This document shows, one piece after another, positions 5,552-21,637 of a DNA stretch of 64,000 bases. Position numbers and translations under genes: made by a program. Origin of the DNA: Deltaproteobacteria bacterium (lineage in GTDB: Bacteria; Desulfobacterota; Binatia; HRBIN30; JACQVA1); the NCBI GenBank assembly GCA_016178705.1, contig JACOST010000030.1, positions 124,001-188,000 on the forward strand. Reading direction: 5' to 3'. Positions within the stretch are counted from its first letter, which is position 1. The number at the start of each line of letters is the position of its first letter. The notes beneath the pieces are model-generated. The model saw nothing but the letters and a program-made list of their open reading frames with translations. It searched no databases and was not told the origin of the DNA.

Positions 5552-7207
5552 ATGGGCGCAGCGCGAGACATGATCCGCCGCCAGCACGGACCGCCGACCC
5601 GCCCGCTTTTGCTGCTGTGCGCGCTGCTCTTCGTTGCGTGCGCCACCGAGCCCGCGCCGCCACCGGCGCCGCCTAGTGTGTTCTCCCGCGCGGAGAACGC
5701 GTTTCAACGCGCCGACTACGAGCGCGCCATCGAAGCGTACCGAGCCTTCCTGCAACACCCCACCGACGATGACTACCTGCCGCGCGCCTGGTACAAGATC
5801 GCGCTCAGCCAGTACCGACTGAAGGAGTATCGCGCGGCGCTCGCCACGCTGAACGAACTCGCCGCTCGCTTTCCGAAAGACAATTGGCCGCAAGTCTCAA
5901 CCTTGCGTGGCGATGTTCACCTCGCGCTCGGCAACACCGTGAGCGCTTTGCAAGCCTGGGCGGAATCGTGGCGTCTCGCCAGCAATGCCGATCGGCCCGC
6001 GATCCGCGCTCGCTGCGATCGGGTGATCGACACGATGAGCGAAGAGGAGCGCGTACACGCCAAAGAAATCATCCGCGACGCTCCCATTCGAGCCTGGCTC
6101 GACCGCACGCCCGCAGCGCTCGCGGCGACGGCGCCTCCCCCCACGCCAAGCAGTGACGCCACCGCCGCTGCCGACAGCGGCCTCGGCTCGCAACACATCG
6201 CCGCGTTGTTGCCGCTCAGCGGTCCGTCGCGCGCTTTCGGCGAGCGGGCGCTGCAAGGAATCCAACTCGGACTCGGTATCGCGCGCGATCAGTTGGTCGT
6301 GCAGGACACCGGCGCCGACTCCGATACAGCTCGCACAGCGTTCACCGAAGTGGCCGGTCGCAGCGACGTCATCGCCGTTATCGGCCCGCTGCGCAGTGAA
6401 GCGGCTGCCGTGATTGCGCCGCTCGCCGAAGACGCGCACCTGCCGCTCCTGCTGCTCGCGCAACGCGAGGGACTCGCGGGCCGTTACGTGTTTCCGACGA
6501 TGATGACCCGAAGCCAGCAGGCCGATGTGCTCGCGCGCGAAGCCCGTCGGCAGAAGTGGTTGCACGTGGGTGTCCTCGCGCCGGATGACGGCTACGGCCA
6601 CGCGTTCACCGACAAGTTCCGCAACGCGTTTGAGCGCGCTGGCGGGCGTGTGACCTGGGCCGACACGTACGACCCGAAGCGCCGCGAGATCTCGGCGCAG
6701 CTAGTGCGCGCGCGCGAGCGCCACGAGCAGAACGCCCTCGACGCCGTCTTCGTGCCCGACACCGCCGAGGCGGCAGTGATCGTCGGCGCAACTCTGCGCG
6801 AGGCGTTGCCGGGTGTTGGTCTGATGGGAGCGAACGACTGGAACGATCCCGCCGCGTTGAGCCACGTCGGTGCGGCGCTCGACGGCGCGATCTTCGTGAC
6901 CGGTTTTTTTGCCGACAGCGCGCGGCCGGCCACGCACAACTTCGTCGACGCGTTCCACCAAGCCTATGGCAGCGCGCCCGACGTGCTAGCGGCGCTCGCG
7001 TACGACGCCGGCGCCGTGGTGCGTGAGATGCTGCGTGAGGTTGTGCAACAAGCCGCAGCAACGCGCGACGCCGTCGCCGACGCTTTGCACCACAGTCGCC
7101 GCGTTATCGGCGCGACCGGCGATATCGAACTCACCGACGATGGCATCAAGCGCGATCTGTTCGTGGTGCGCATCGCCGGCGGCAAGCTGCAAGAGGTCGC
7201 TCCCTGA
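5552..7207 (+). CDS. Lipoprotein: TPR plus periplasmic-binding fold (LpoA/penicillin-binding protein activator-like)
   Basis: A lipoprotein signal is seen: a basic start, LLLLCALLFVAC with a lipobox cysteine, then a Pro-rich linker. Residues about 45-200 form TPR-like helices (RADYERAIEAYRAFL, RLKEYRAALATLNELAARFP). From about 215 a type I periplasmic-binding fold begins (IAALLPLSGPSRAFGERALQGIQLGL; VIGPLRSEAAAVIAPLAE; VFVPDTAEAAVIVGATLR). This architecture is that of LpoA and related penicillin-binding protein activators, and of LIV-type receptors detached from transporters. No transporter genes are adjacent. GTG 5540, ATG 5552 and ATG 5570 are all possible starts. It begins just after dnaJ and its TGA overlaps the thiL ATG by one base, so an operon with thiL is likely. 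Peptidoglycan synthesis control is an inference from architecture. Confidence 0.75.
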   Translation: MGAARDMIRRQHGPPTRPLLLLCALLFVACATEPAPPPAPPSVFSRAENAFQRADYERAIEAYRAFLQHPTDDDYLPRAWYKIALSQYRLKEYRAALATLNELAARFPKDNWPQVSTLRGDVHLALGNTVSALQAWAESWRLASNADRPAIRARCDRVIDTMSEEERVHAKEIIRDAPIRAWLDRTPAALAATAPPPTPSSDATAAADSGLGSQHIAALLPLSGPSRAFGERALQGIQLGLGIARDQLVVQDTGADSDTARTAFTEVAGRSDVIAVIGPLRSEAAAVIAPLAEDAHLPLLLLAQREGLAGRYVFPTMMTRSQQADVLAREARRQKWLHVGVLAPDDGYGHAFTDKFRNAFERAGGRVTWADTYDPKRREISAQLVRARERHEQNALDAVFVPDTAEAAVIVGATLREALPGVGLMGANDWNDPAALSHVGAALDGAIFVTGFFADSARPATHNFVDAFHQAYGSAPDVLAALAYDAGAVVREMLREVVQQAAATRDAVADALHHSRRVIGATGDIELTDDGIKRDLFVVRIAGGKLQEVAP

Positions 7208-8199
7208 TGGCCCGCACGCAGACGCTGGCCACACTCGGCGAGTTCGGTTTTCTCGATCGGTTGCTACCGACGCTTGGGCGCAACCGTGAGGTGCTGGTCG
7301 GCGCCGGCGACGACTGCGCGGTCGTCCGCTGCGGCAATCGCCGCCTGCTCATCACTACCGATGCGTTGGTGGAAGGCGTTCACTTCAAGTCCGAATGGCT
7401 CAGCCTGCGGCAACTCGGGCGGCGCAGCTTGCTGGTGAACCTCAGCGACATCGCCGCGATGGGCGGACGACCGACGTTCTGCGTCATCAGCGTCGGCGTG
7501 CCGGCGAGCTATCCCGCCGCTAACCTGTTCGCCGTTCACGATGGCATCAAGTCGGCCGCACGGGCGACTAGCGTGGCGATCGTCGGCGGCAACATCACGC
7601 GAGCGAAGGAACTGTTCATCTCGATCACGTTGCTCGGCGAGTGCGGCCCAAATTATCTCACCCGCAGTGGGGCGCGCGATGGCGACGAGCTCTGGGTCAC
7701 CGGAACCGTCGGCGATGCCGCGCTCGGAGTGCGGCAGCTCGAACGCGGCGTGCGGCGCGGCCCCGCCGTGCAACGCTATCGTGAGCCGCAGCCGCGGCTC
7801 GCCGCCGGGCGACTACTCGCCGAACACAAGGTCGCCACCGCCCTGATCGACATCAGCGATGGCCTGCTGCAGGACCTCGGGCATCTCGCCGCAGCCAGTG
7901 GCGTCGGCGCGGTCATCGAAGTCGACGCATTGCCGTACTCGCCGGCGCTGCGCCGACTGCCGGCCGCCGATGCGCTCGCGCTTGCGCTGCGCGGAGGCGA
8001 CGATTACGAGTTGCTGTGTGCGGTCCCCCATCGTCGTGTGCCGGCACTGCAACGCATCGCCAAACGCTTGGGGTGCCGCATCACCCGCATCGGCCGTTGC
8101 GTACCCAAACGCGCTGGGATTCAACTGATCGGCGCCGGCCGCGAAGTTCGCGTTGCGGCTGGCGGTGGATGGGATCATTTCGTGAATCGTGAGTCGTGA
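7207..8199 (+). CDS. thiL: Thiamine-monophosphate kinase ThiL
   Basis: ThiL phosphorylates thiamine monophosphate to the active cofactor thiamine diphosphate. The 330-residue protein belongs to the AIRS/PurM-like fold; it has the GDDCAVV motif near residue 36, the TTDALVEGVHF and LVNLSDIAAMGG metal/substrate motifs, the Gly-rich VGGNITRAKE, and ALIDISDGLLQDL and RGGDDYELLCAV in the second half. The start ATG overlaps the stop of the preceding lipoprotein gene. Size and motif order are normal. Confidence 0.95.
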   Translation: MARTQTLATLGEFGFLDRLLPTLGRNREVLVGAGDDCAVVRCGNRRLLITTDALVEGVHFKSEWLSLRQLGRRSLLVNLSDIAAMGGRPTFCVISVGVPASYPAANLFAVHDGIKSAARATSVAIVGGNITRAKELFISITLLGECGPNYLTRSGARDGDELWVTGTVGDAALGVRQLERGVRRGPAVQRYREPQPRLAAGRLLAEHKVATALIDISDGLLQDLGHLAAASGVGAVIEVDALPYSPALRRLPAADALALALRGGDDYELLCAVPHRRVPALQRIAKRLGCRITRIGRCVPKRAGIQLIGAGREVRVAAGGGWDHFVNRES

Positions 8200-8223
8200 C
8201 TCGGGCGGAAGAGAAATATTGCG

Positions 8224-8991
8224 ATGCACCCTGATCGTCTTCGTGAATTGCTCGAACTGGTGCGCAGCGGCGGGGTCACGCCGGAGCAGGCCATGGAGCG
8301 GCTCAAGGCGATGCCGTTCGAGGACCTCGGCTTCGCCAAGGTCGATCATCATCGCGCGCTGCGCAAGGGACTTCCCGAAGTGATCTTCGGCGCCGGCAAA
8401 ACCGCGGCACAGATCATCGAGATTGCCCAGCGGCTCAGCGACGGCGCACAAAACGTGCTGATCACGCGGCTCGAACCGACGATGGCAGCCGACGTGTGCG
8501 CGGCGTTGCCGGCCGCGCGCTACAACCCGCATGCGCGCATCGCGTCACTGGTCCACCGTCCGATCGAAGTGCGCGGACGCGGCACCATCCTCATTGTATG
8601 TGCCGGCACGTCGGACTTGCCGGTGGCGGAAGAAGCGGCGCAGACGGCGGAGCTGCTCGGCAACCGCGTCGAGCGACTGCACGACGTCGGCGTCGCCGGC
8701 ATTCATCGCTTGCTGGCGCATCACGAGTTGCTGCAACAAGCCGGTGTCGTCATCGTCGTCGCTGGTATGGAGGGGGCGCTGCCCAGCGTCGTCGGCGGCC
8801 TCGTCGCTGTGCCGGTGATCGCGGTGCCGACCAGCGTCGGCTACGGCGCCAGCTTCGGCGGCCTGGCCGCGCTGCTCGCCATGCTCAACTCCTGCTCCGC
8901 TGGCATCACGGTGGTGAACATCGACAACGGCTTCGGTGCCGCGGTCGCCGCGAGTTTGATCAACCGCGCTACGGTCGACAGCGGCGAGTGA
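8224..8991 (+). CDS. larB: LarB, pyridinium-3,5-biscarboxylic acid mononucleotide synthase
   Basis: LarB carboxylates and hydrolyses nicotinic acid adenine dinucleotide in the first step of nickel-pincer cofactor (lactate racemase cofactor) synthesis. The 255-residue protein has a short N-terminal helical region ([19 protein letters not shown]) and a C-terminal PurE-like (AIRC) domain with [15 protein letters not shown], the Gly-rich [17 protein letters not shown] and [21 protein letters not shown]. It is 24 bases downstream of thiL. larC and larE are not in the window, so whether the organism makes the complete cofactor cannot be judged here. Confidence 0.93.
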
Positions 8992-12624: not shown

Positions 12625-13695
12625 GTGCATGCGGTTCACGACGCGGTTCTCCGATTCATCGCGACCGACGGCGGCGACTTCGACGCATTGGCGCCGGCGG
12701 TCTTCGCGCACCAGTTCGAAACCATCGCGCCCTATCGGCGCTACTGCGAACGGCGCGGTGTCTCGCCGTCGTCTTTGCGTAGTTGGCGCGAGGTGCCACC
12801 GGTGCCGGTCGTGGCATTCAAGGAGACCGATCTGCACTGTGCCGAGCCCGAGCGAGTCTTCTTGACGACGGGCACGAGTCGCGGCGGCGAGAAACGCGGC
12901 CGCCACGGGCTGCCCGACCTCCGGCTGTATCGCGCGTCGGCCATCGCCGGGTTGCGCCGCTTCCTCTTCCCCGATGTCAATCGCACACCCATCGTCTCGC
13001 TGATTCCGTCGTGCGCGACAGCACCTGATTCCTCGCTATCCCAAATGATCGGATGGGCAATGGAGGAGTGCGGCGCACCCGGCAGCGCCTACGTCGCCTC
13101 GCCCGCCGGCATCGACTTCGCGGCGTGCATTGCCGCGTTGCGCGTGAGCGAACGCAGTGGCACGCCACTGTGCATCGTGACGACGACCGCCGCGCTGATT
13201 CACCTGCTCGACTATTGCACCACCCACGCGGTCACGTTTCGCTTGCCCCACGGTTGCCGTCTGATGGACACCGGCGGCACCAAGGGCACGCCGCGGCCAC
13301 TCTCGCGCAAAGGCTTGCTGCAAGCGGCGTGGAACACGTTCGCGATTCCCGGCTACTTCTGCGTCAACGAGTACGGCATGGCGGAGCTGTCCTCACAGTT
13401 CTACGACAACGTCATCCGCAATCGTGTCGGTGGCCGGTTCGCGCGGCGCCAGCTGGTTGGGCCGCCGTGGACACGCGTGCGCGTGCTCGATCCCGCGACA
13501 CTTGCGGAGGTGCCGCCCGGCGAGCAAGGACTGCTATGTCTATACGACCTCGCCAACGCCGGCACCGCGTTCGCCGTGTTGACGGAAGATCTCGGTCACA
13601 CTGTTAGCGACGGCTTCGCGGTTGACGGCCGCATCGGCGGCGCCGAGGCCCGCGGCTGTTCGCTCAGCGCGGCCGAGTGGCAGGTCCCGGCGTAA
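12625..13695 (+). CDS. LuxE-like acyl-protein synthetase/ligase
   Basis: The 356-residue protein matches the LuxE/PaaK-like family that activates fatty acids as acyl-AMP and passes the acyl group to itself and on to a reductase. Visible elements are the phosphate-binding LTTGTSRGGEKRGRH (about 93-107), MDTGGTKGTPRPLSR near 215, and the C-terminal CVNEYGMAELSSQFYDN, in which the EYGM(A/T)E motif is typical of adenylate-forming enzymes. The start is uncertain: GTG 12625 gives a normal length, and an open frame extends to 12430 over a palindromic repeat. It is four bases ahead of the LuxC-like gene, which supports a functional pair. No luxAB is present. Confidence 0.8.
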   Translation: MHAVHDAVLRFIATDGGDFDALAPAVFAHQFETIAPYRRYCERRGVSPSSLRSWREVPPVPVVAFKETDLHCAEPERVFLTTGTSRGGEKRGRHGLPDLRLYRASAIAGLRRFLFPDVNRTPIVSLIPSCATAPDSSLSQMIGWAMEECGAPGSAYVASPAGIDFAACIAALRVSERSGTPLCIVTTTAALIHLLDYCTTHAVTFRLPHGCRLMDTGGTKGTPRPLSRKGLLQAAWNTFAIPGYFCVNEYGMAELSSQFYDNVIRNRVGGRFARRQLVGPPWTRVRVLDPATLAEVPPGEQGLLCLYDLANAGTAFAVLTEDLGHTVSDGFAVDGRIGGAEARGCSLSAAEWQVPA

Positions 13696-13699
13696 CACT

Positions 13700-14938
13700 A
13701 TGCTCACCGCCGCTGACGTCGAGCGAATCGCCGCAGACTTGATCACGGCGCGTGAACGCATCCTGCGCCCGCGACCGACGGCGCAGGTGCTGGCCGCACT
13801 CAGCGAACTCGTCGACCGATGGCTGCAACCCGAATCGCCCTGGCGACAGCGCGCCGAAGCTGAGTTGCCCGCCGCAACCGGGTTCTCGGCAGCCATGGTA
13901 CGACATGGCTTGCCGCTGATGCTCGAACCGTTACGCAGTAGCGCAATCGGTCGGCTCCTCGACGCCGAGTTGGGCTCGCGTGATCGCGCCTGCGGCCCGC
14001 CGCTGCTGCTGCATGTGCTCGCCGGCAACCTGCCGGGGTTGGCGGCGATCCCGATCGCGCTCTCGCTCGCCGTCAAATCGGCCGTGATGGTGAAGGCCGG
14101 AAGCGGCGACCGCGTGTTCCCGTCGCTGTTCATCGAGTCGCTCGCGGCCGTCGACACCGAGTTGGCGCAGTGTGCTGCGGCGCTCTACTGGCCGGGTGGC
14201 CGGCTCGATCCCGAAGCCGCGGCGTTTCGTGCGGCCAATGTGGTGGTCGCCTCGGGCAACGACGTGACCATCGCCGATATTGCGCGCCGAGTGCCGGGGC
14301 GGTTCATCGGCCACGGTCACCGCATCAGCTTCGCGGCAATCACGCGAGAAGCGTTGCGCGATGCGGAGGTTGTCGCGGCCCGACTCGCCGACGATGTCGC
14401 GCTGTGGGATCAACTCGGTTGTCTGTCGCCACAGCTCGCCTACGTGGAACGCGGCGGTGCGATCTCCGTCGAACAATTTGCCGACACCCTTGGCCGCGCG
14501 CTCGATCGACTCGCCGACGAGTTGCCGTTGCGCCAACTGAGTCGCGCCGAGCAGGCCGCCTTGCAGCGCTTCCGTCAGGAAGCCGAGTGGCGCAGTGTGC
14601 GCGGCGAGGAGGTCACGTTGTTCGCATCGCCAAGCGGTGTCAGTTGGACCGTCGTGTACGACACCGCACCCGTGTTCGTTCCGACGCCGCTCAATCGGAC
14701 CGTCTGGGTGAAGCCGCTGGATGCGCTCGCGGAGCTGGCGACGATCCTCGCACCCGTACGCCCGTACCTCGAAGCGGCAGGCATCGCGGCACCGCCGAAC
14801 CGCCAGGGCGATCTGGAGACGTGGCTCACCCAGACTGGCGTGCATCGCGTGTGTTCTCTCGGCCAAATGCAGCGACCGGACTTGAGCTGGCGGCAAGGCG
14901 GGCGGCCACGAGTGTCGGAATGGATCGTGAGGCCGTGA
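13700..14938 (+). CDS. LuxC-like acyl-CoA/acyl-enzyme reductase
   Basis: The 412-residue product belongs to the LuxC family, which reduces activated fatty acyl groups to aldehydes with NADPH. It has the Rossmann-like stretch HVLAGNLPGLAAIPIALSL, GSGDRVFPSLF, VASGNDVTIADIARR and, near residue 238, LGCLSPQLAYVE, where the Cys occupies the position of the catalytic, acyl-accepting cysteine. ATG 13700 lies directly after the luxE-like stop. The following class III aminotransferase starts 20 bases later. Together these suggest fatty acid to aldehyde to amine chemistry (inference). Confidence 0.85.
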   Translation: MLTAADVERIAADLITARERILRPRPTAQVLAALSELVDRWLQPESPWRQRAEAELPAATGFSAAMVRHGLPLMLEPLRSSAIGRLLDAELGSRDRACGPPLLLHVLAGNLPGLAAIPIALSLAVKSAVMVKAGSGDRVFPSLFIESLAAVDTELAQCAAALYWPGGRLDPEAAAFRAANVVVASGNDVTIADIARRVPGRFIGHGHRISFAAITREALRDAEVVAARLADDVALWDQLGCLSPQLAYVERGGAISVEQFADTLGRALDRLADELPLRQLSRAEQAALQRFRQEAEWRSVRGEEVTLFASPSGVSWTVVYDTAPVFVPTPLNRTVWVKPLDALAELATILAPVRPYLEAAGIAAPPNRQGDLETWLTQTGVHRVCSLGQMQRPDLSWRQGGRPRVSEWIVRP

Positions 14939-14958
14939 TACGTGACGCGTGACATGAG

Positions 14959-16182
14959 ATGAGCGACGAGTACGACGACCAACTGCGCGCGGCCTTTCTC
15001 CGCTACGTGTGCCAAACTTCGCCCGACCCGCTCGGCATCGTTGTCGAGCGCGCGCGTGGGGCGACGGTGTGGGACACGCATGGGCGCGCGTATCTCGATC
15101 TGCTTTCCGGCATCGGCGTGGCCAACGTCGGCCACTGCCATCCCGACGTCGTGCGCGCCGTGCAAGAGCAAGCCGCGCGCTATCTACACGTGATGGTGTA
15201 CGGCGAGGCGATCGAGGCGCCGCAAGTCGAGTTGGCGCGCCGGCTCGCCACGCTCACACCCGGTGATCTCGACGTGACCTACTTCACCAACAGCGGCGCC
15301 GAAGCGGTCGAAGGCGCGCTCAAGACCGCGCGCAAGTTCACCGGCCGCACCGGCTTCGTCGCCTTTCACGGCAGCTTTCACGGCGATACCTTCGGAGCGC
15401 TCTCGGTCGGCGGCAATCCGCTCTACCGCCAGCCGTTCGAGCCGCTGCTCAGCGGCGTGCGCTTTCTCGCCTTCGATGACGAAGCGGCGTTGAGCGCCAC
15501 CGACGAGTCGATTGCTGCCGTCATCGTCGAGCCGATCCAGGGCGAAGGCGGCGTGCGGATTCCGCACGATACCTTCCTCCCCGCGCTGCGCCGGCGTTGC
15601 AGCGAGGTCGGCGCGCTGCTGATCGTCGACGAAGTCATCACCGGCTTCGGCCGCACAGGACAACTGTTCGCCTGCGAGCACTGGGGCGTCATTCCCGATC
15701 TGCTCGTGCTGGCGAAGGCACTCGGCGGCGGCATGCCGCTCGGCGCATTCATCGGCCGACGCGAGATCATGGCCACGCTCTCGCGCGATCCGCCGCTGGC
15801 GCACGTGACAACCTTCGGCGGCCATCCGGTGTCCTGCGCCGCCGGCCTTGCCGCACTGAACGTGCTCACGCGCGACAATCTTTCTGAGCGCGCGGCTGTG
15901 CTCGGCGAGCAATGGCGCACGCGATTGTCGTCGCTCATCGGTGACAGACTGTGCGCCGTGCGCGGCAAGGGCCTGCTGATCGGCTTGGAATTCCGTGACG
16001 CCGAGACGACGCAACGCATCGCGCGCGTGTGTTTCGCGCGCGGCCTGATCGTGAATTGGACGTTGCACCGCGATACGGTCATTCGCCTCGCGCCGCCGTT
16101 GATCTTGACCGACGACGAATCTGAACAGGCACTAGAGCGGTTGATCGGGGCGATGGAAGCCTCGGCTAAGCAGAGCCTGTAG
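14959..16182 (+). CDS. Class III PLP-dependent aminotransferase
   Basis: A 407-residue omega-type aminotransferase. It shows GIGVANVGHCHPDVV, the cofactor phosphate loop NSGAEAVEGALKTAR, FHGSFHGDT, VEPIQGEGG, IVDEVITGFGRTGQ (Asp contacting the pyridine nitrogen), the PLP lysine in LVLAKALGGGMPLGA and THE-like TTFGGHPVSCAA. The sequence resembles acetylornithine/putrescine/4-aminobutyrate enzymes, a group that accepts aldehydes. Its position immediately behind the LuxE-LuxC pair suggests that the aldehyde product is transaminated. Annotation as ornithine or putrescine aminotransferase cannot be excluded. Confidence 0.88.
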   Translation: MSDEYDDQLRAAFLRYVCQTSPDPLGIVVERARGATVWDTHGRAYLDLLSGIGVANVGHCHPDVVRAVQEQAARYLHVMVYGEAIEAPQVELARRLATLTPGDLDVTYFTNSGAEAVEGALKTARKFTGRTGFVAFHGSFHGDTFGALSVGGNPLYRQPFEPLLSGVRFLAFDDEAALSATDESIAAVIVEPIQGEGGVRIPHDTFLPALRRRCSEVGALLIVDEVITGFGRTGQLFACEHWGVIPDLLVLAKALGGGMPLGAFIGRREIMATLSRDPPLAHVTTFGGHPVSCAAGLAALNVLTRDNLSERAAVLGEQWRTRLSSLIGDRLCAVRGKGLLIGLEFRDAETTQRIARVCFARGLIVNWTLHRDTVIRLAPPLILTDDESEQALERLIGAMEASAKQSL

Positions 16183-16436: not shown

Positions 16437-17669
16437 ATGCGCGCGCTCGTGTTTGAGAACAGTCTGCCTCGGCTTGCGGTCACCCGGATGCTCGCGACAC
16501 TTTCGGCGCGCGCCTATGTCGGGCCGCTAGCGCCGATGACGTTGAAGGAGATTCCCGATCCGCAATTTCCGGCGCCCGATTGGGTGACGATTCGGACCAA
16601 TCTGTGCGGTTTGTGCGGCAGCGATTACAAACAGGTCTTTCTGAAGGGCCGGCTCGACAATCCGATGACCGCGCTGGTTTCCTTCCCGCAAGTGCTCGGG
16701 CACGAAGTGGTCGGTGTGATCGAGGCGGTCGGGCCGGCGGTGACGACCCGCAAGGTCGGCGAGCGGGTCGTGCTGAACCCGTGGCTGTCGTGCGCGCCGC
16801 GGGGGATCACGCCGCCGTGCGCCTGGTGCGCGCGCGGCGAGTACGCACAGTGCGAGAACTTCGCCCGCGGCACGATCGACGTTGGCATTCACACCGGCAA
16901 CAGCCGGCACGCCACCGGTGGTTTCGCGCCGTTGGTGCCGGCGCACGTGTCGCAGTGCATTCCGATTCCCGACGACATTCCCGATCACGCCGCGGTGCTG
17001 GCCGATCCGTTTTCGGTCTCGCTGCACGCCATCCTGCATCAGCCGCCCGTAGACGGTGGAAGCGCGCTGGTCTACGGCTGCGGGACGCTCGGGTTGCTCG
17101 CCATCGCGATCCTGCGCGCCCTCCACCCCACCGTCCGCATCTGCGCCGTCGCGCGCTTCGACCATCAGGCGGAACTGGCGCGACAGTTTGGCGCGGAGCG
17201 CGTGTTCATGTGGCGGCCGACCACTGAGATCATCGCGGGCGTGAGCGAGTTCACTGGCGCAGAAGTGCAACCACCATGGCATGGGCAAGCGATGCTCAAC
17301 GGCGGCGTTGATGTCATCTACGATTCGGTGGCGTCGGCCGAAGCGCTCGAAGTCGGCGTGCGGGTGACGCGGCCGCGCGGCAAGATCGTCGTCACCGGCG
17401 TCGAGATGCCCAAGCAGTTCGAGTGGACTCCGCTCTACTTCAAGGAACTCGCCATCGTCGGTTCCAACGCGTTTGCGATCGAGGAGTACGGCGGTCGCCG
17501 CCTCCACGCGATGGAGTGGTACTTCGAATTCATCCGCACGCGGCGCCTCGACGTCACGCCGATCATCACTCACCGCTACCAACTCAATGACTACAAGACC
17601 GCCTTCATGTCGTGTTGGGATCAGGGCAAAGCGCGCGCGGTGAAGGTGCTGTTCGAGTACGGGCGGTAG
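16437..17669 (+). CDS. Zinc-dependent alcohol dehydrogenase family protein
   Basis: A 410-residue medium-chain dehydrogenase. It has the catalytic-zinc motif CGLCGSDYKQ, GHEVVGVIEAVG, a structural-zinc lobe with several cysteines (CAPRGITPPCAWCARGEYAQC), and a Rossmann segment ALVYGCGTLGLLAIAILRA. It is closest in style to threonine/sorbitol dehydrogenase-like and glutathione-independent aldehyde dehydrogenases; the substrate is unknown. ATG 16437 is used; the open frame upstream (to 16185) runs through repeats and is not coding. It follows the aminotransferase cluster by 254 bases, so participation in aldehyde/alcohol interconversion there is possible but unproven. Confidence 0.82.
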   Translation: MRALVFENSLPRLAVTRMLATLSARAYVGPLAPMTLKEIPDPQFPAPDWVTIRTNLCGLCGSDYKQVFLKGRLDNPMTALVSFPQVLGHEVVGVIEAVGPAVTTRKVGERVVLNPWLSCAPRGITPPCAWCARGEYAQCENFARGTIDVGIHTGNSRHATGGFAPLVPAHVSQCIPIPDDIPDHAAVLADPFSVSLHAILHQPPVDGGSALVYGCGTLGLLAIAILRALHPTVRICAVARFDHQAELARQFGAERVFMWRPTTEIIAGVSEFTGAEVQPPWHGQAMLNGGVDVIYDSVASAEALEVGVRVTRPRGKIVVTGVEMPKQFEWTPLYFKELAIVGSNAFAIEEYGGRRLHAMEWYFEFIRTRRLDVTPIITHRYQLNDYKTAFMSCWDQGKARAVKVLFEYGR

Positions 17670-17671
17670 CG

Positions 17672-19963
17672 GTGACCGTTGCGCACTGCGCGCGCGGGGC
17701 GATCCTGAGTGTGCTGTTTGCGTTCGGGGTTGCAGCGGCGAGCGCTCCTGAAATCGAGCACTCCGGCGTACAGGGCGTCGCCGTCGTGGATGCTGGCGGT
17801 GTACCCGACAGCGCGCGCCTGCGCACTGGCGATCCGATCATCATACCGCGCATGCCGCGCGTGCCAGCGATGCACCGATCGGCGCCATTCGTCGTCGCAC
17901 CGCCAGCACGCGCTGCAATCGCCGCATCACCACAACCCAAGGCGCCGCCGCTGGCGGCGAACTTTGCCGGTATTCCCTATACTGGCTTCTTTCCCCCTGA
18001 TCCGATCATCGCCGCGGGACCGACACACCTGGTCGCGGTGGTGAACGGCGGCATCGCCTTGTTTGCAAAGAACGGCACCAAGACGCAACAACGCGCGCTC
18101 GATGACTTTCACAACGGCGCGCGCTCGAGCGACGGCTTCACTTACGATCCGAAGATCATCTACGACCCGCACGGCGGCCGCTTCATCGTGATCACGCTCG
18201 ACGGTCAGTCGAGCCCCGACTCGTGGCTCCGTATTGCGGTCTCCAAGTCGAGTACGCCGGGGAACTTGAGCGTCGGACCGAGCGCGTCACAAGACTGGTG
18301 GGGTTATACCATCGATGCCGACAAGGACGGCGGTGTGCAGACGAACGACAACTGGGCCGACTTCCCCGGCCTCGGCGTCGATCAGTTCAACGTCTACGTC
18401 ACGACCAACATGTTTTCGAACGCCGGTGACTTCGAATACGCGAAGGTGTGGGTCATCGCCAAGGCGAGCCTCTATGCGGGCAATCCGATCGCTCCGCTCG
18501 AGTTTGGCGCGCCACCCGCGGCACCCTTGGGCAACCCCGTCACCGGCTTGGCCGACTTCACCATCGCACCGGAGATCAATTTCGACGCAACCAGCGAACA
18601 CATGTTGGCCACCAACGCGCTCGACTCGGACGGCAACGGTTATCTCACCCTGTGGACGGTGAACAATCCCGCCACCATGCCGACGCTTGTGAGCGTTAAT
18701 CTCACGGTGACGGGATGGAACGACGCCAACGTTCCGCAATGCCCCCAAAAGGGGGGCGGCGTGCCACTCGATGACGGCGACACACGTGTGCTGCACGCGG
18801 TCGAGCGCAACGGCAGTCTGTGGGCGACACACACGCAGTCGAGCGTGGACGGGGCGCGCGCCGAAGCGCGCTGGTACGAGCTCGATCCGGCGACGCCAGC
18901 GGTGCGGCAACTCGGCACCGTCGGCGACCCGACGCGGTGCTACTTCTACCCGGCGATTCAGCCCGATGCGCACGGCAACGTCTGCCTGGTGATGAGCGGC
19001 GTCGATGGATCGATCTTCGGCTCGGCGTTCTACACCGGGCGTGCGGCCTCGGATCCGCCGGGCACGATGCAACCCGTGGGGTTTCTGCAAGCGGGCCTGT
19101 CGAACTACGTTGTCACCGCTGAAGGCAGCAACCGCTGGGGCGACTTCGGCGGCATCGCCGCCGATCCCGTCACCGACGACATCTGGATGTTCCACGAATA
19201 CGCAGCGAAGACTTCGGACCAGTGGAGCACGTGGATCGGCCGCAAGCAGGCGCCTACCGGCGTGCCCACGAATGGAGTGTCTCCGACGGCAACGCCAACG
19301 ATCATCGCTTCCCCCACTGCGACGGCTTCCCCCACTGCGACGGCTTCCTCCACTGCGACGGCTTCCTCCACTGCGACGGCTTCGGCCACGGCGACGGTCT
19401 CGCCTACTCGCAGCCCGAGCGTGACGCAGACGACGAGCGCGCCGCCAACACCCACGACATCGGCCACGGCCACCGTTTCACCGACTCGCAGCCCGAGCGC
19501 GACGCAGACGGCAAGCGCAACACCGACGGCCACCGCTTCGGCGACTGCGACCGTTTCGCCCACTCGCAGTCCGAGCGCAACGCCGACGCCCACCGCTTCA
19601 GCGACTGCGACCGTTTCACCCACTCGCAGCCCGAGCATAACGCGGACGACGAGCGCAACATCAACATCGACGCTTACGATCACCGCCACAATCACCATCG
19701 TCGGGATGAACACGCCCACGACGACCCCGACCGCCACCTCGTCAGCGACGATTGCCGCGAGCACGACACAAACGCCGACTGGACCGCGCGGCGACGTGAA
19801 TTGCGACGGCTACGTATCGGTCGCCGATGTGGTCGCGCTGCAGCCCCTCATCCCTCCCAACGACGTCGGCCCGTGCGGACGCGGCGATGTCAACGGCGAC
19901 GATGTCGTGAACGGTGTAGATACCGGTGCGGCGATTGGGAGGATCTTTGCACCGACACCATGA
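17672..19963 (+). CDS. Secreted protein with Thr/Pro/Ser-rich linker and C-terminal dockerin-like domain
   Basis: A 763-residue protein starting at GTG 17672, two bases after the previous stop, with a hydrophobic signal (ILSVLFAFGVAAASA). Residues about 100-520 form a beta-rich extracellular domain with several aromatic and Asp/Gly loops (GYTIDADKDGGVQTNDNWADFPGLG), probably a propeller. Then follows a low-complexity linker of repeated SPTATA and SATATVSPTRSPS units (about 545-700), and a C-terminal pair of calcium-loop motifs, GDVNCDGYVSVADV and GDVNGDDVVNGVDT, that look like a type I dockerin. The linker is encoded by near-perfect DNA repeats. A partner cohesin-like domain is present in the protein at 28400-30514. 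Ligand unknown. Confidence 0.75.
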   Translation: MTVAHCARGAILSVLFAFGVAAASAPEIEHSGVQGVAVVDAGGVPDSARLRTGDPIIIPRMPRVPAMHRSAPFVVAPPARAAIAASPQPKAPPLAANFAGIPYTGFFPPDPIIAAGPTHLVAVVNGGIALFAKNGTKTQQRALDDFHNGARSSDGFTYDPKIIYDPHGGRFIVITLDGQSSPDSWLRIAVSKSSTPGNLSVGPSASQDWWGYTIDADKDGGVQTNDNWADFPGLGVDQFNVYVTTNMFSNAGDFEYAKVWVIAKASLYAGNPIAPLEFGAPPAAPLGNPVTGLADFTIAPEINFDATSEHMLATNALDSDGNGYLTLWTVNNPATMPTLVSVNLTVTGWNDANVPQCPQKGGGVPLDDGDTRVLHAVERNGSLWATHTQSSVDGARAEARWYELDPATPAVRQLGTVGDPTRCYFYPAIQPDAHGNVCLVMSGVDGSIFGSAFYTGRAASDPPGTMQPVGFLQAGLSNYVVTAEGSNRWGDFGGIAADPVTDDIWMFHEYAAKTSDQWSTWIGRKQAPTGVPTNGVSPTATPTIIASPTATASPTATASSTATASSTATASATATVSPTRSPSVTQTTSAPPTPTTSATATVSPTRSPSATQTASATPTATASATATVSPTRSPSATPTPTASATATVSPTRSPSITRTTSATSTSTLTITATITIVGMNTPTTTPTATSSATIAASTTQTPTGPRGDVNCDGYVSVADVVALQPLIPPNDVGPCGRGDVNGDDVVNGVDTGAAIGRIFAPTP
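19308..19640 (+). repeat. Coding tandem repeats of the Thr/Pro/Ser linker
   Basis: Four 18-bp units (CCCACTGCGACGGCTTCC and variants) at 19311-19384 are followed by longer units of about 60-70 bp that share GCGACGGTCTC or GCGACCGTTTC and CCACTCGCAGCCCGAGCG. The repeats remain in frame and vary mostly at wobble positions. Slippage or recombination probably changes linker length. Confidence 0.8.
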
Positions 19964-19972
19964 CTGGTAGTG

Positions 19973-21556
19973 TCAACCCGCTACCGGGCGCCTTGCGCGC
20001 ATCACGAGCAGCACGGTCGCTCCTACTAGTCCCCAGCCGAAGACGTGCCCGATGCGGGTGAAGACCGACATGATCTTCAACGGGTGGACCGAGGCGACGA
20101 GCGCGTCGGCAGTGAAGATCGGCAATTCGCCGACGACGCGGCCGAGCGGATCGATGACGCTGGTGACGCCGCTGTTATTCACGCGCAGCAGGTAGCGCCG
20201 GTTTTCGATCGCGCGCCACAGCGCGATGGCTTGATGATCGTAGGGCGCAGCCGACTCGCCGTACCACGCGTCGTTCGCCATCGCGACGAGGACCTCGGCG
20301 CCGGCTTGAGTCATGGCCCGGGGAATCGCCGTGACCAGGTCTTCAAAGCAAATCAGCGGACCGATTTGACCGACGTTCGGCACGGTGAACGTGTGGGTCT
20401 CGCGCCCGGGCGTGAAACCGCCGGTCTGCGGACTCAACCGCTTGATCGCCGGGAACAGCGACGCGAACGGGATGTATTCGCCGAACGGCATCAGGATCTG
20501 CTTGTCGTAGCGATTGAGCAGGGCGCCGGAGCGATCGATGAGGAAGGCGCTGTTGTACTCGTCGGCTTCGCGCGGGCCGGTTCGGTGATACGCCAACCCT
20601 CCGTAGATGAGCTGCGTCGTCAACCCGGGAAACGGAAGGTCGCTGTCTGCCAATGACGTTGTTTCTGTCGGCAGCCATTCTTGCACCACGGTTTCCGGCC
20701 AGATCGCGAGCGCGACGCGATCCTGCAGCGACGCGGTGAGCTGACGGTAGCGCTCGACGTTGATCTCGAAGTAGGCCTGACTCTTCTTCTCCTTGATGCC
20801 GACGTTGCCCTGCACCAACGCGATCGACACCGGCGGCACCGCCCGCATCGTCGTTTCCACGCTGGCGATGCGAGCCAGCCCGTAAACATACACGCTTGCG
20901 ATCACGACACCGACGGTGGCCAGCGAAGCGATTCGTCGCCGGCTTGTCGTCACCAGTTGCGCGACGGCGGCGCTGGCCCACACCACCACCAGGCTCAGTC
21001 CGAACGGGCCGGTGAGATCGCCGATCTGAATCAACGGGACGACGAGGTTTTGCGTGTGCGCCATCCGCCACGGGAACAAATTGGGGTAGAGAAATTCGAT
21101 GCTGGTCCACAGCATCGCCGGCGCCAGCGCGAGCGGACCCCAACCGGTGCGCGTGAAGGCGAGGCCGAAGAGCACGAACTGCAGCGACGAGGCCGCCGCG
21201 AGAACGGCGAAGACGAGCACGGCGATCGCGTACGGGAAGCCACCGAACACTCTGATCGTATAGATCAGCCAATAGAAGCCGATGACGTTGGTGACCATGC
21301 CGGCGATCGCGGCGATGATGATTGTCTCGCGTCGGTCGCGTGCACGGCTGAGCGCCCACAGCAGCGGTGCGAACGCGATCCACGCGAACAGATGCAGATG
21401 GAAATTGAGAAACGTCGCGCCAATGAGGGCGCCGGTTGTCGCCGCGGCGACCGCGTGCGGCCAGGCGACCGCCCAGCGCAAGGGAATCGCCGCACCAATA
21501 GCGGTCGGTACCGCGAGCGCGTCAGTGCGCGGCGGCCGAGTGCGTGAGCGGCTCAT
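19973..21556 (-). CDS. lnt: Apolipoprotein N-acyltransferase Lnt
   Basis: Lnt adds the third acyl chain to the N-terminal cysteine of lipoproteins in the inner membrane. The approximately 527-residue protein has about seven N-terminal membrane helices, then a nitrilase-like periplasmic domain with the catalytic triad visible as Glu in AIWPETVVQEWLP, Lys in YDKQILMPFGEYIPF and Cys in GPLICFEDLV, plus a last membrane helix. Several starts are possible (TTG 21586, ATG 21565, ATG 21556) and none has a strong ribosome site. It is convergent with the dockerin-like gene and separated by only nine bases. Confidence 0.94.
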   Translation of the reverse strand: MSRSRTRPPRTDALAVPTAIGAAIPLRWAVAWPHAVAAATTGALIGATFLNFHLHLFAWIAFAPLLWALSRARDRRETIIIAAIAGMVTNVIGFYWLIYTIRVFGGFPYAIAVLVFAVLAAASSLQFVLFGLAFTRTGWGPLALAPAMLWTSIEFLYPNLFPWRMAHTQNLVVPLIQIGDLTGPFGLSLVVVWASAAVAQLVTTSRRRIASLATVGVVIASVYVYGLARIASVETTMRAVPPVSIALVQGNVGIKEKKSQAYFEINVERYRQLTASLQDRVALAIWPETVVQEWLPTETTSLADSDLPFPGLTTQLIYGGLAYHRTGPREADEYNSAFLIDRSGALLNRYDKQILMPFGEYIPFASLFPAIKRLSPQTGGFTPGRETHTFTVPNVGQIGPLICFEDLVTAIPRAMTQAGAEVLVAMANDAWYGESAAPYDHQAIALWRAIENRRYLLRVNNSGVTSVIDPLGRVVGELPIFTADALVASVHPLKIMSVFTRIGHVFGWGLVGATVLLVMRARRPVAG

Positions 21557-21637
21557 CGAGCCCATTGAGCGCAACGAGCGCAACAAGCGATGGACTCGTC
21601 GATCGACGAGTCAATGAGCCAATGACTCACGCGCCGA

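Follow-up and report, generated by a model that had tools for sequence, protein, structure and literature searches.

Contig JACOST010000030.1 carries, within the 64,000-nucleotide stretch analysed here (the window, from a member of the class Binatia), a three-gene cassette encoding a LuxE-like acyl-adenylate/acyl-protein ligase, a LuxC-like acyl reductase, and a class III pyridoxal phosphate (PLP) aminotransferase (AT). Gene order, conservation, fusions, conserved cysteines, association with queD, queE, and queG in other phyla, and mutual exclusion with QueF are the observations on which our reading rests: LuxE, LuxC, and AT very probably convert 7-carboxy-7-deazaguanine (CDG) to preQ1 via 7-formyl-7-deazaguanine, replacing QueC and QueF. 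The chemistry fits, since the carbon that bears a carboxyl group in CDG bears an aminomethyl group in preQ1. As judged from sequence, LuxE would adenylate CDG with ATP and then carry the acyl group in thioester linkage to its C-terminal cysteine; LuxC would receive the acyl group on Cys241 and, using NAD(P)H, reduce it to 7-formyl-7-deazaguanine; and the AT would transaminate this aldehyde, giving the aminomethyl group of preQ1, with glutamate as the probable amino donor. PreQ1 would then be used by Tgt and QueA. The substrate, thioester relay, cofactor, and amino donor named here are those that we infer for the cassette enzymes. The textbook route from CDG to preQ1 runs via preQ0 with QueC and QueF, as described in the available text of two sources (PMC5372724, PMC11130926); the cassette route would be nitrile-free and would replace both enzymes in queuosine biosynthesis.

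The three genes lie 4 bases (luxE-luxC) and 20 bases (luxC-AT) apart and form a tight operon in a host genome of 6.1 Mb that is 98% complete (Table 1). An earlier note on this DNA had placed the cassette and the 20-base gap correctly, as confirmed by open reading frames (ORFs) on the + strand and by Pfam matches that exceed the gathering score for each protein. Neither lux protein reaches its luminescence equivalog: the LuxE-like protein scores 57.2 of 550 bits against NF052244, and the LuxC-like protein 49.7 of 750 bits against NF052251. In searches with family profiles, the closest solved structure for both is 7xc6, whose chains are named LuxE and long-chain acyl-protein thioester reductase (E 4.2e-33 for the LuxE-like protein against 7xc6_E; E 3.4e-42 for the LuxC-like protein against 7xc6_A). 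The conserved reductase cysteine that the same note had pointed out is also borne out; Cys241, presumably the catalytic residue, lies in the motif GCLSP, is invariant in 22/22 aligned LuxC sequences, and corresponds in the structure-based match to the ACFSTQ cysteine of 7xc6_A. The C-terminal Cys345 of LuxE is likewise invariant in 22/22 aligned sequences (the alignment omits the row for L067, which has an in-frame stop) and is aligned with GCSL of 7xc6_E. By homology, K253 of the AT is predicted to be the PLP lysine.

The cassette is conserved across Binatia. LuxC is present in 105 of the 148 genomes of the class and an orthologous AT in 102, every one of them LuxC-positive, with the ortholog set drawn by hand at an identity gap (at least 52% versus at most 47% among the rows shown). 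The AT lies downstream of luxC within 300 bp in 86 genomes and within 3 kb in 9; in 7 it is more distant, or placed on a different contig or strand. No AT was counted in the other three LuxC-positive genomes, two of which (G002 and G074) carry AT pieces at contig ends that were scored as absent. LuxE adjacency was counted in 50 of the 105 LuxC-positive genomes: LuxE is directly upstream in 42, farther upstream in 3, and unseen in 5, four of which have less than 2 kb of upstream sequence. Among 395 genomes drawn from the phylum, aminotransferase matches at E 1e-105 or better occur in 15, all within Binatia. A search for phage carriage gave 7 pattern matches in viral contigs, none of them a relative. 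Gene order kept in this way across the class is not due to chance.

Fusions point in the same direction. In family f13, LuxC and AT were scored as a single stop-free frame in 12/12 genomes examined, of 13 that are LuxC-positive, with the qualification that one of the twelve frames (G094) carries a stop inside its AT part; in the thirteenth genome, luxC and the AT gene are on two contigs. In family f6, LuxE and LuxC are fused in one frame in 6 of 7 genomes chosen for long open frames, and five other f6 loci have separate frames. The fused frames tie together both junctions of the proposed pathway, and one acid-to-aldehyde-to-amine path is supported by the class-wide adjacency together with LuxC-AT and LuxE-LuxC fusions in different families.

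Relatives outside the class were sought by scanning GTDB genomes with the LuxC alignment, which returned 276, of which the best 80 loci were analysed. An AT stands beside LuxE-LuxC in 5 NC10 loci (upstream, 52-56% identity), in 4 loci labelled Nitrospirae or Nitrospirota (downstream of luxC, 57-62% identity, with luxE unseen in two), and in 4 Verrucomicrobia loci (upstream, 39-43% identity); weaker or partial AT matches occur in L106, L113, L132, and L140. Most of the remaining loci, and two plasmid loci (Azospirillum, Pantoea), contain LuxE-LuxC without the AT. According to the labelling of their neighbors, the genes that recur next to LuxE-LuxC outside Binatia include queuosine genes. QueD lies directly behind luxC, within 207 bp, in 19 loci, 18 of them named Verrucomicrobia or Akkermansia and one unlabelled locus grouping with these in the LuxC tree; QueE adjoins the AT in 4 Verrucomicrobia loci and lies 108 bp before luxE in L085, which is labelled Methylomirabilota; and QueG precedes the AT in 5 NC10 loci. 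All 29 neighbors (19 QueD, 5 QueE, 5 QueG) match the NCBIfam models of the same name at E 1e-5 or better. Three of the QueD-linked Verrucomicrobia loci additionally have a major facilitator superfamily (MFS) transporter gene between luxE and luxC, possibly encoding a deazapurine transporter.

LuxC and strong QueF exclude each other in the class. Strong QueF matches (E 4.2e-31 or better in the class) occur in 0/105 LuxC-positive and 29/43 LuxC-negative genomes (Fisher p 1.5e-20), though counts and p are uncorrected for relatedness, which weakens the case for our reading. These 29 of 148 genomes come from families f15 and f16 and, within f6, from genus g23. Tgt is found in 143 of the 148 genomes, including 104 of the 105 with LuxC, and among Tgt-bearing genomes of the class the cassette is complementary to QueF. 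Genus g23 (2 genomes), within the otherwise mostly LuxC-positive f6, carries QueC and QueF but no cassette; a LuxC-positive genome is found in every one of the remaining 16 f6 genera and strong QueF in none of them, and g23 therefore looks like an independent swap. Strong QueC (E 1.1e-57 or better) occurs in 27 genomes of the class, of which G028 alone is LuxC-positive. The QueF survey outside Binatia covered 50 LuxE-LuxC genomes of 63 wanted; strong QueF, here E 1.3e-29 or better, was found in 0/5 NC10, 0/5 Nitrospirota/Troglogloeales, and 1/27 Verrucomicrobia-type genomes (1/37 combined), in 7/7 Bacilli and Chloroflexota, and in 0/3 Actinobacteria, 0/2 WOR-3/Stahlbacteria, and 0/1 additional Bacillota. 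Strong QueC in this survey was confined to 5 Bacilli and the exceptional Verrucomicrobium L141.

The host genome carries Tgt and QueA side by side, both above curated cut-offs, and a QueE-like radical S-adenosylmethionine gene ~4.5 kb from folE; with Tgt, QueA, and QueE- and QueD-like genes present and strong QueC and QueF absent, the gap is therefore exactly CDG to preQ0 to preQ1. PF01242, the QueD family, is matched in 44 of the 45 LuxC-positive class genomes tested. In 26/26 class genomes, all picked for having both matches on one contig, the QueE-like and FolE genes are at most 8 kb apart, and this closeness therefore says little alone.

A tree built from 56 aminotransferases unites the cassette enzymes of Binatia, NC10, and Nitrospirota in a single group (100/100) and separates them from E. 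coli ArgD, PatA, GabT, and PuuE as well as from eight ArgD-like enzymes found in the class. A second group (100/100) consists of the four Verrucomicrobia enzymes; its position is unsure because of long branches. In the LuxC tree, a Verrucomicrobia group (99/98) has QueD-linked and AT-linked LuxC as sisters; 13 thiamin-type and related rows (not all with a riboswitch) and two WOR-3 rows are grouped together (99/98), separate from Verrucomicrobia.

Several further observations weigh against a role of the cassette in preQ1 synthesis. The QueE and QueD homologs of the host genome fall below curated cut-offs (63.0 of 206.1 and 49.9 of 89.25 bits, respectively). The 19 QueD-linked loci gave no match to the cassette AT, and no que gene appears among those neighbors of Binatia cassettes that were labelled (a part of all neighbors), except in L085. 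No preQ1 riboswitch reached the gathering score upstream of the cassette in 20 Binatia loci, nor did any in 12 loci outside Binatia. In the LuxC tree, thiamin-type LuxC stands closer than Binatia LuxC does to the NC10 and Verrucomicrobia sequences; Binatia LuxC joins neither the Verrucomicrobia nor the NC10 sequences, and que-linked LuxC is therefore not one group. The exclusion pattern itself has exceptions: G028 has both the cassette and strong QueC, L141 has LuxC-QueD together with QueC and QueF, and 14 of the 148 class genomes have neither LuxC nor strong QueF. Weak QueF matches (E 1e-6 to 1e-3) were not scored as QueF; nine class genomes without strong QueF have a match just over the Pfam cut-off, and seven of these are LuxC-positive, scoring 27.5-28.0 against a cut-off of 27.3 bits. 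The weak match in the host genome, the only one of these seven checked, is FolE. Four NC10 or Nitrospirota genomes have a weak, unchecked QueF match as well (27.8-29.4 bits). Finally, QueC-like paralogs with weaker matches are, within Binatia, found mainly in families f6 and f7, and they turn up in NC10, Nitrospirota, and some Verrucomicrobia too; the five tested score 71.5-105.9 of 150.3 bits, below the QueC cut-off. One of these, in L225, adjoins a pteridine reductase-like short-chain dehydrogenase/reductase (SDR; 250.1 of 288 bits) and a QueD-family gene, and weak QueC-like matches similar to these paralogs are seen in the cassette-negative genomes G052 and G053.

The earlier note had proposed that the cassette leads from a fatty acid through a fatty aldehyde to a fatty amine or an amino-lipid head group. 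Its acid-aldehyde-amine logic is supported, as is the idea that the genes act together, given class-wide adjacency and fusions; the fatty substrate is not supported, as low luminescence equivalog scores, que neighbors, and the phylogenetic profile point instead to queuosine. LuxE and LuxC are named for fatty acyl groups, the LuxC-AT logic resembles that of the reductase-transaminase enzymes PigE and PP_2782 (in the available text of PMC10829540), and a Bacilli SDR found behind LuxE-LuxC passes the NCBIfam 3-oxoacyl-acyl carrier protein (ACP) reductase model (297.0 over 292 bits) and could be read as fatty-acid related. However, scores far below the luminescence equivalogs and the thiamin pyrophosphate (TPP) riboswitches ahead of the SDR operons run counter to a fatty route, and the que neighbors in Verrucomicrobia and NC10 and the exclusion with QueF led us to abandon it as the leading explanation; we consider it very unlikely. 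The same neighborhood data would accommodate a queuosine-linked cassette with a different substrate or product, for example a further deazapurine modification or the reduction of a related carboxylate with the AT serving a product other than preQ1, and the QueC-like paralogs of some LuxE-LuxC genomes, one beside the pteridine reductase-like SDR, could be taken in its favor. That the gap in the host genome spans exactly CDG to preQ0 to preQ1, and that QueC plus QueF take the place of the cassette in genus g23, makes this alternative unlikely.

It is extremely improbable that the AT is of the ArgD or PatA kind, acting on amino acids or polyamines, and stands beside luxEC by descent only, with preQ1 being salvaged. 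The closest solved structures of the AT are indeed PatA and ArgD-type enzymes, and preQ1 salvage is known in other bacteria, according to the available text of PMC5372724 and PMC11130926. Yet the AT belongs to its own clade (100/100) with the NC10 and Nitrospirota cassette enzymes, it is fused to LuxC in some genomes, and QueD- and QueE-like genes are retained. It also misses the cut-offs for ArgD (TIGR00707, 369.7 of 410.05 bits; PRK03244, 377.1 of 457 bits) and for PatA, the putrescine aminotransferase (368.7 of 612 and 329.2 of 658.65). An ArgD or PatA identity was rejected on the tree and these cut-offs; the grouping with argD or patA enzymes that the earlier note had allowed for is not what the tree recovers, and luxE-luxC pairs of other genomes do carry the AT.

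A sister arrangement probably extends beyond queuosine. In many Bacilli and Actinobacteria loci, LuxE-LuxC is followed by an SDR, with an NMT1/THI5-type ATP-binding cassette transporter or a xanthine-type permease, and a TPP riboswitch precedes the operon on the same strand in 8 of 11 LuxE-LuxC-SDR loci scanned. This operon probably represents a variant of the module that serves thiamin salvage; we infer a reductive salvage of oxidised thiamin pyrimidine, the substrate included. A Bacillota contig (L113) carries LuxE-LuxC with a distant AT (37%), and no QueD, QueC, or QueF was found in its genome; this is perhaps a third use of the module. There is about an even chance that LuxE-LuxC is an old, widespread module for activating and reducing heteroaromatic carboxylic acids, in which the third gene sets the product (the AT giving preQ1 in Binatia, NC10, Nitrospirota, and Verrucomicrobia; the SDR giving hydroxymethyl pyrimidine for thiamin in Bacilli, Actinobacteria, and Azospirillum) and the supply of fatty aldehyde to luciferase is a late specialisation.

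Other features of the window touch the cassette less directly. A Zn-dependent alcohol dehydrogenase-like gene lies downstream of it here and in six more genomes, all of the same order; among the loci examined, this gene follows the cassette only in part of that order, and it is probably outside the core cassette. Close to the cassette are also thiL, larB, and lnt, whose relatives are found again beside it in further Binatia families; this suggests that the locus is old and vertically inherited. A long ORF in the window contains a low-complexity repeat stretch rich in Thr, Ala, Ser, and Pro and has no Pfam match at E 0.001. Elsewhere in the host genome, there is a second, weak LuxC-family match (C1, E 3.8e-11).

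Table 1. Coordinates of cassette genes, neighboring features, and features of related loci; bits in parentheses are Pfam gathering scores.
Feature	Locus	Coordinates	Strand	Details
LuxE-like acyl-adenylate/acyl-protein ligase	window	12625-13695	+	start GTG; PF04443 43.6 bits (24.9); Cys345 codon 13657-13659
LuxC-like acyl reductase	window	13700-14938	+	start ATG; PF05893 215.7 bits (21), E 1.4e-63; Cys241 codon 14420-14422
Class III PLP aminotransferase (AT)	window	14959-16182	+	start ATG; PF00202 368.4 bits (30.5); K253
Zn-dependent alcohol dehydrogenase-like gene	window	16437-17669	+	downstream of cassette
thiL, larB, lnt	window	7207-8991 and 19973-21586
Long ORF with repeat stretch	window	17612-19963
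MFS transporter gene	L111	4249-5493		between luxE and luxC
MFS transporter gene	L126	4417-5817		between luxE and luxC
MFS transporter gene	L149	4610-5899		between luxE and luxC
TPP riboswitch (Bacilli, Arthrobacter)	L128	4619-4727		before LuxE-LuxC-SDR
TPP riboswitch (Bacilli, Arthrobacter)	L138	4569-4673		before LuxE-LuxC-SDR
TPP riboswitch (Bacilli, Arthrobacter)	L145	4439-4543		before LuxE-LuxC-SDR
TPP riboswitch (Bacilli, Arthrobacter)	L148	4396-4501		before LuxE-LuxC-SDR
TPP riboswitch (Bacilli, Arthrobacter)	L152	4567-4670		before LuxE-LuxC-SDR
TPP riboswitch (Bacilli, Arthrobacter)	L139	2762-2870		before LuxE-LuxC-SDR
TPP riboswitch (Bacilli, Arthrobacter)	L116	3152-3263		before LuxE-LuxC-SDR
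TPP riboswitch (Bacilli, Arthrobacter)	L105	3097-3211		before LuxE-LuxC-SDR
QueC-like paralog	L219	4791-5513
QueC-like paralog	L224	2524-3279
QueC-like paralog	L225	2423-3103
QueC-like paralog	L226	5215-6174
QueC-like paralog	L227	5704-6360
LuxE-LuxC with distant AT	L113	1-3373

Compared with known systems, the cassette would share its start (CDG) and end (preQ1) with QueC and QueF, as well as the partners queD, queE, and queG in other phyla, but it consists of unrelated protein families and would proceed via an aldehyde and transamination rather than via an amide and a nitrile. With the LuxE and LuxC of bioluminescence (PF04443, PF05893; 7xc6) it has in common homologous profiles, conserved cysteines, adjacent genes, and acid-to-aldehyde chemistry, whereas its scores are far under the equivalog cut-offs, its gene partners are different, and its proposed substrate is a deazapurine. 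PigE and the transaminase fusion PP_2782 (compare also TamH) likewise combine acyl reduction with a subsequent class III transamination, also as fusion proteins. These enzymes serve secondary metabolism, however, and the cassette AT falls below the PigE cut-off (316.2 of 850 bits). The fused domain of PP_2782 is an acyl-ACP reductase, according to the available text of PMC10829540, whereas the fusion partner in the cassette is LuxC.

In a search of the open-access literature, the titles and opening lines of abstracts among the matches listed do not link LuxE or LuxC to preQ1 or queuosine, and no paper was returned for 7-formyl-7-deazaguanine or for preQ1 with LuxC. If correct, the proposed role of the cassette would amount to another route to preQ1, unrelated to the first and seen in no fewer than four phyla, and would account for queuosine synthesis in bacteria without QueC and QueF; gene-presence rules that call genomes without queC and queF salvagers would be wrong for genomes with the cassette. 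It would also give a job to non-luminous LuxE-LuxC pairs, and the variant behind TPP riboswitches would provide a reductive salvage step for thiamin.

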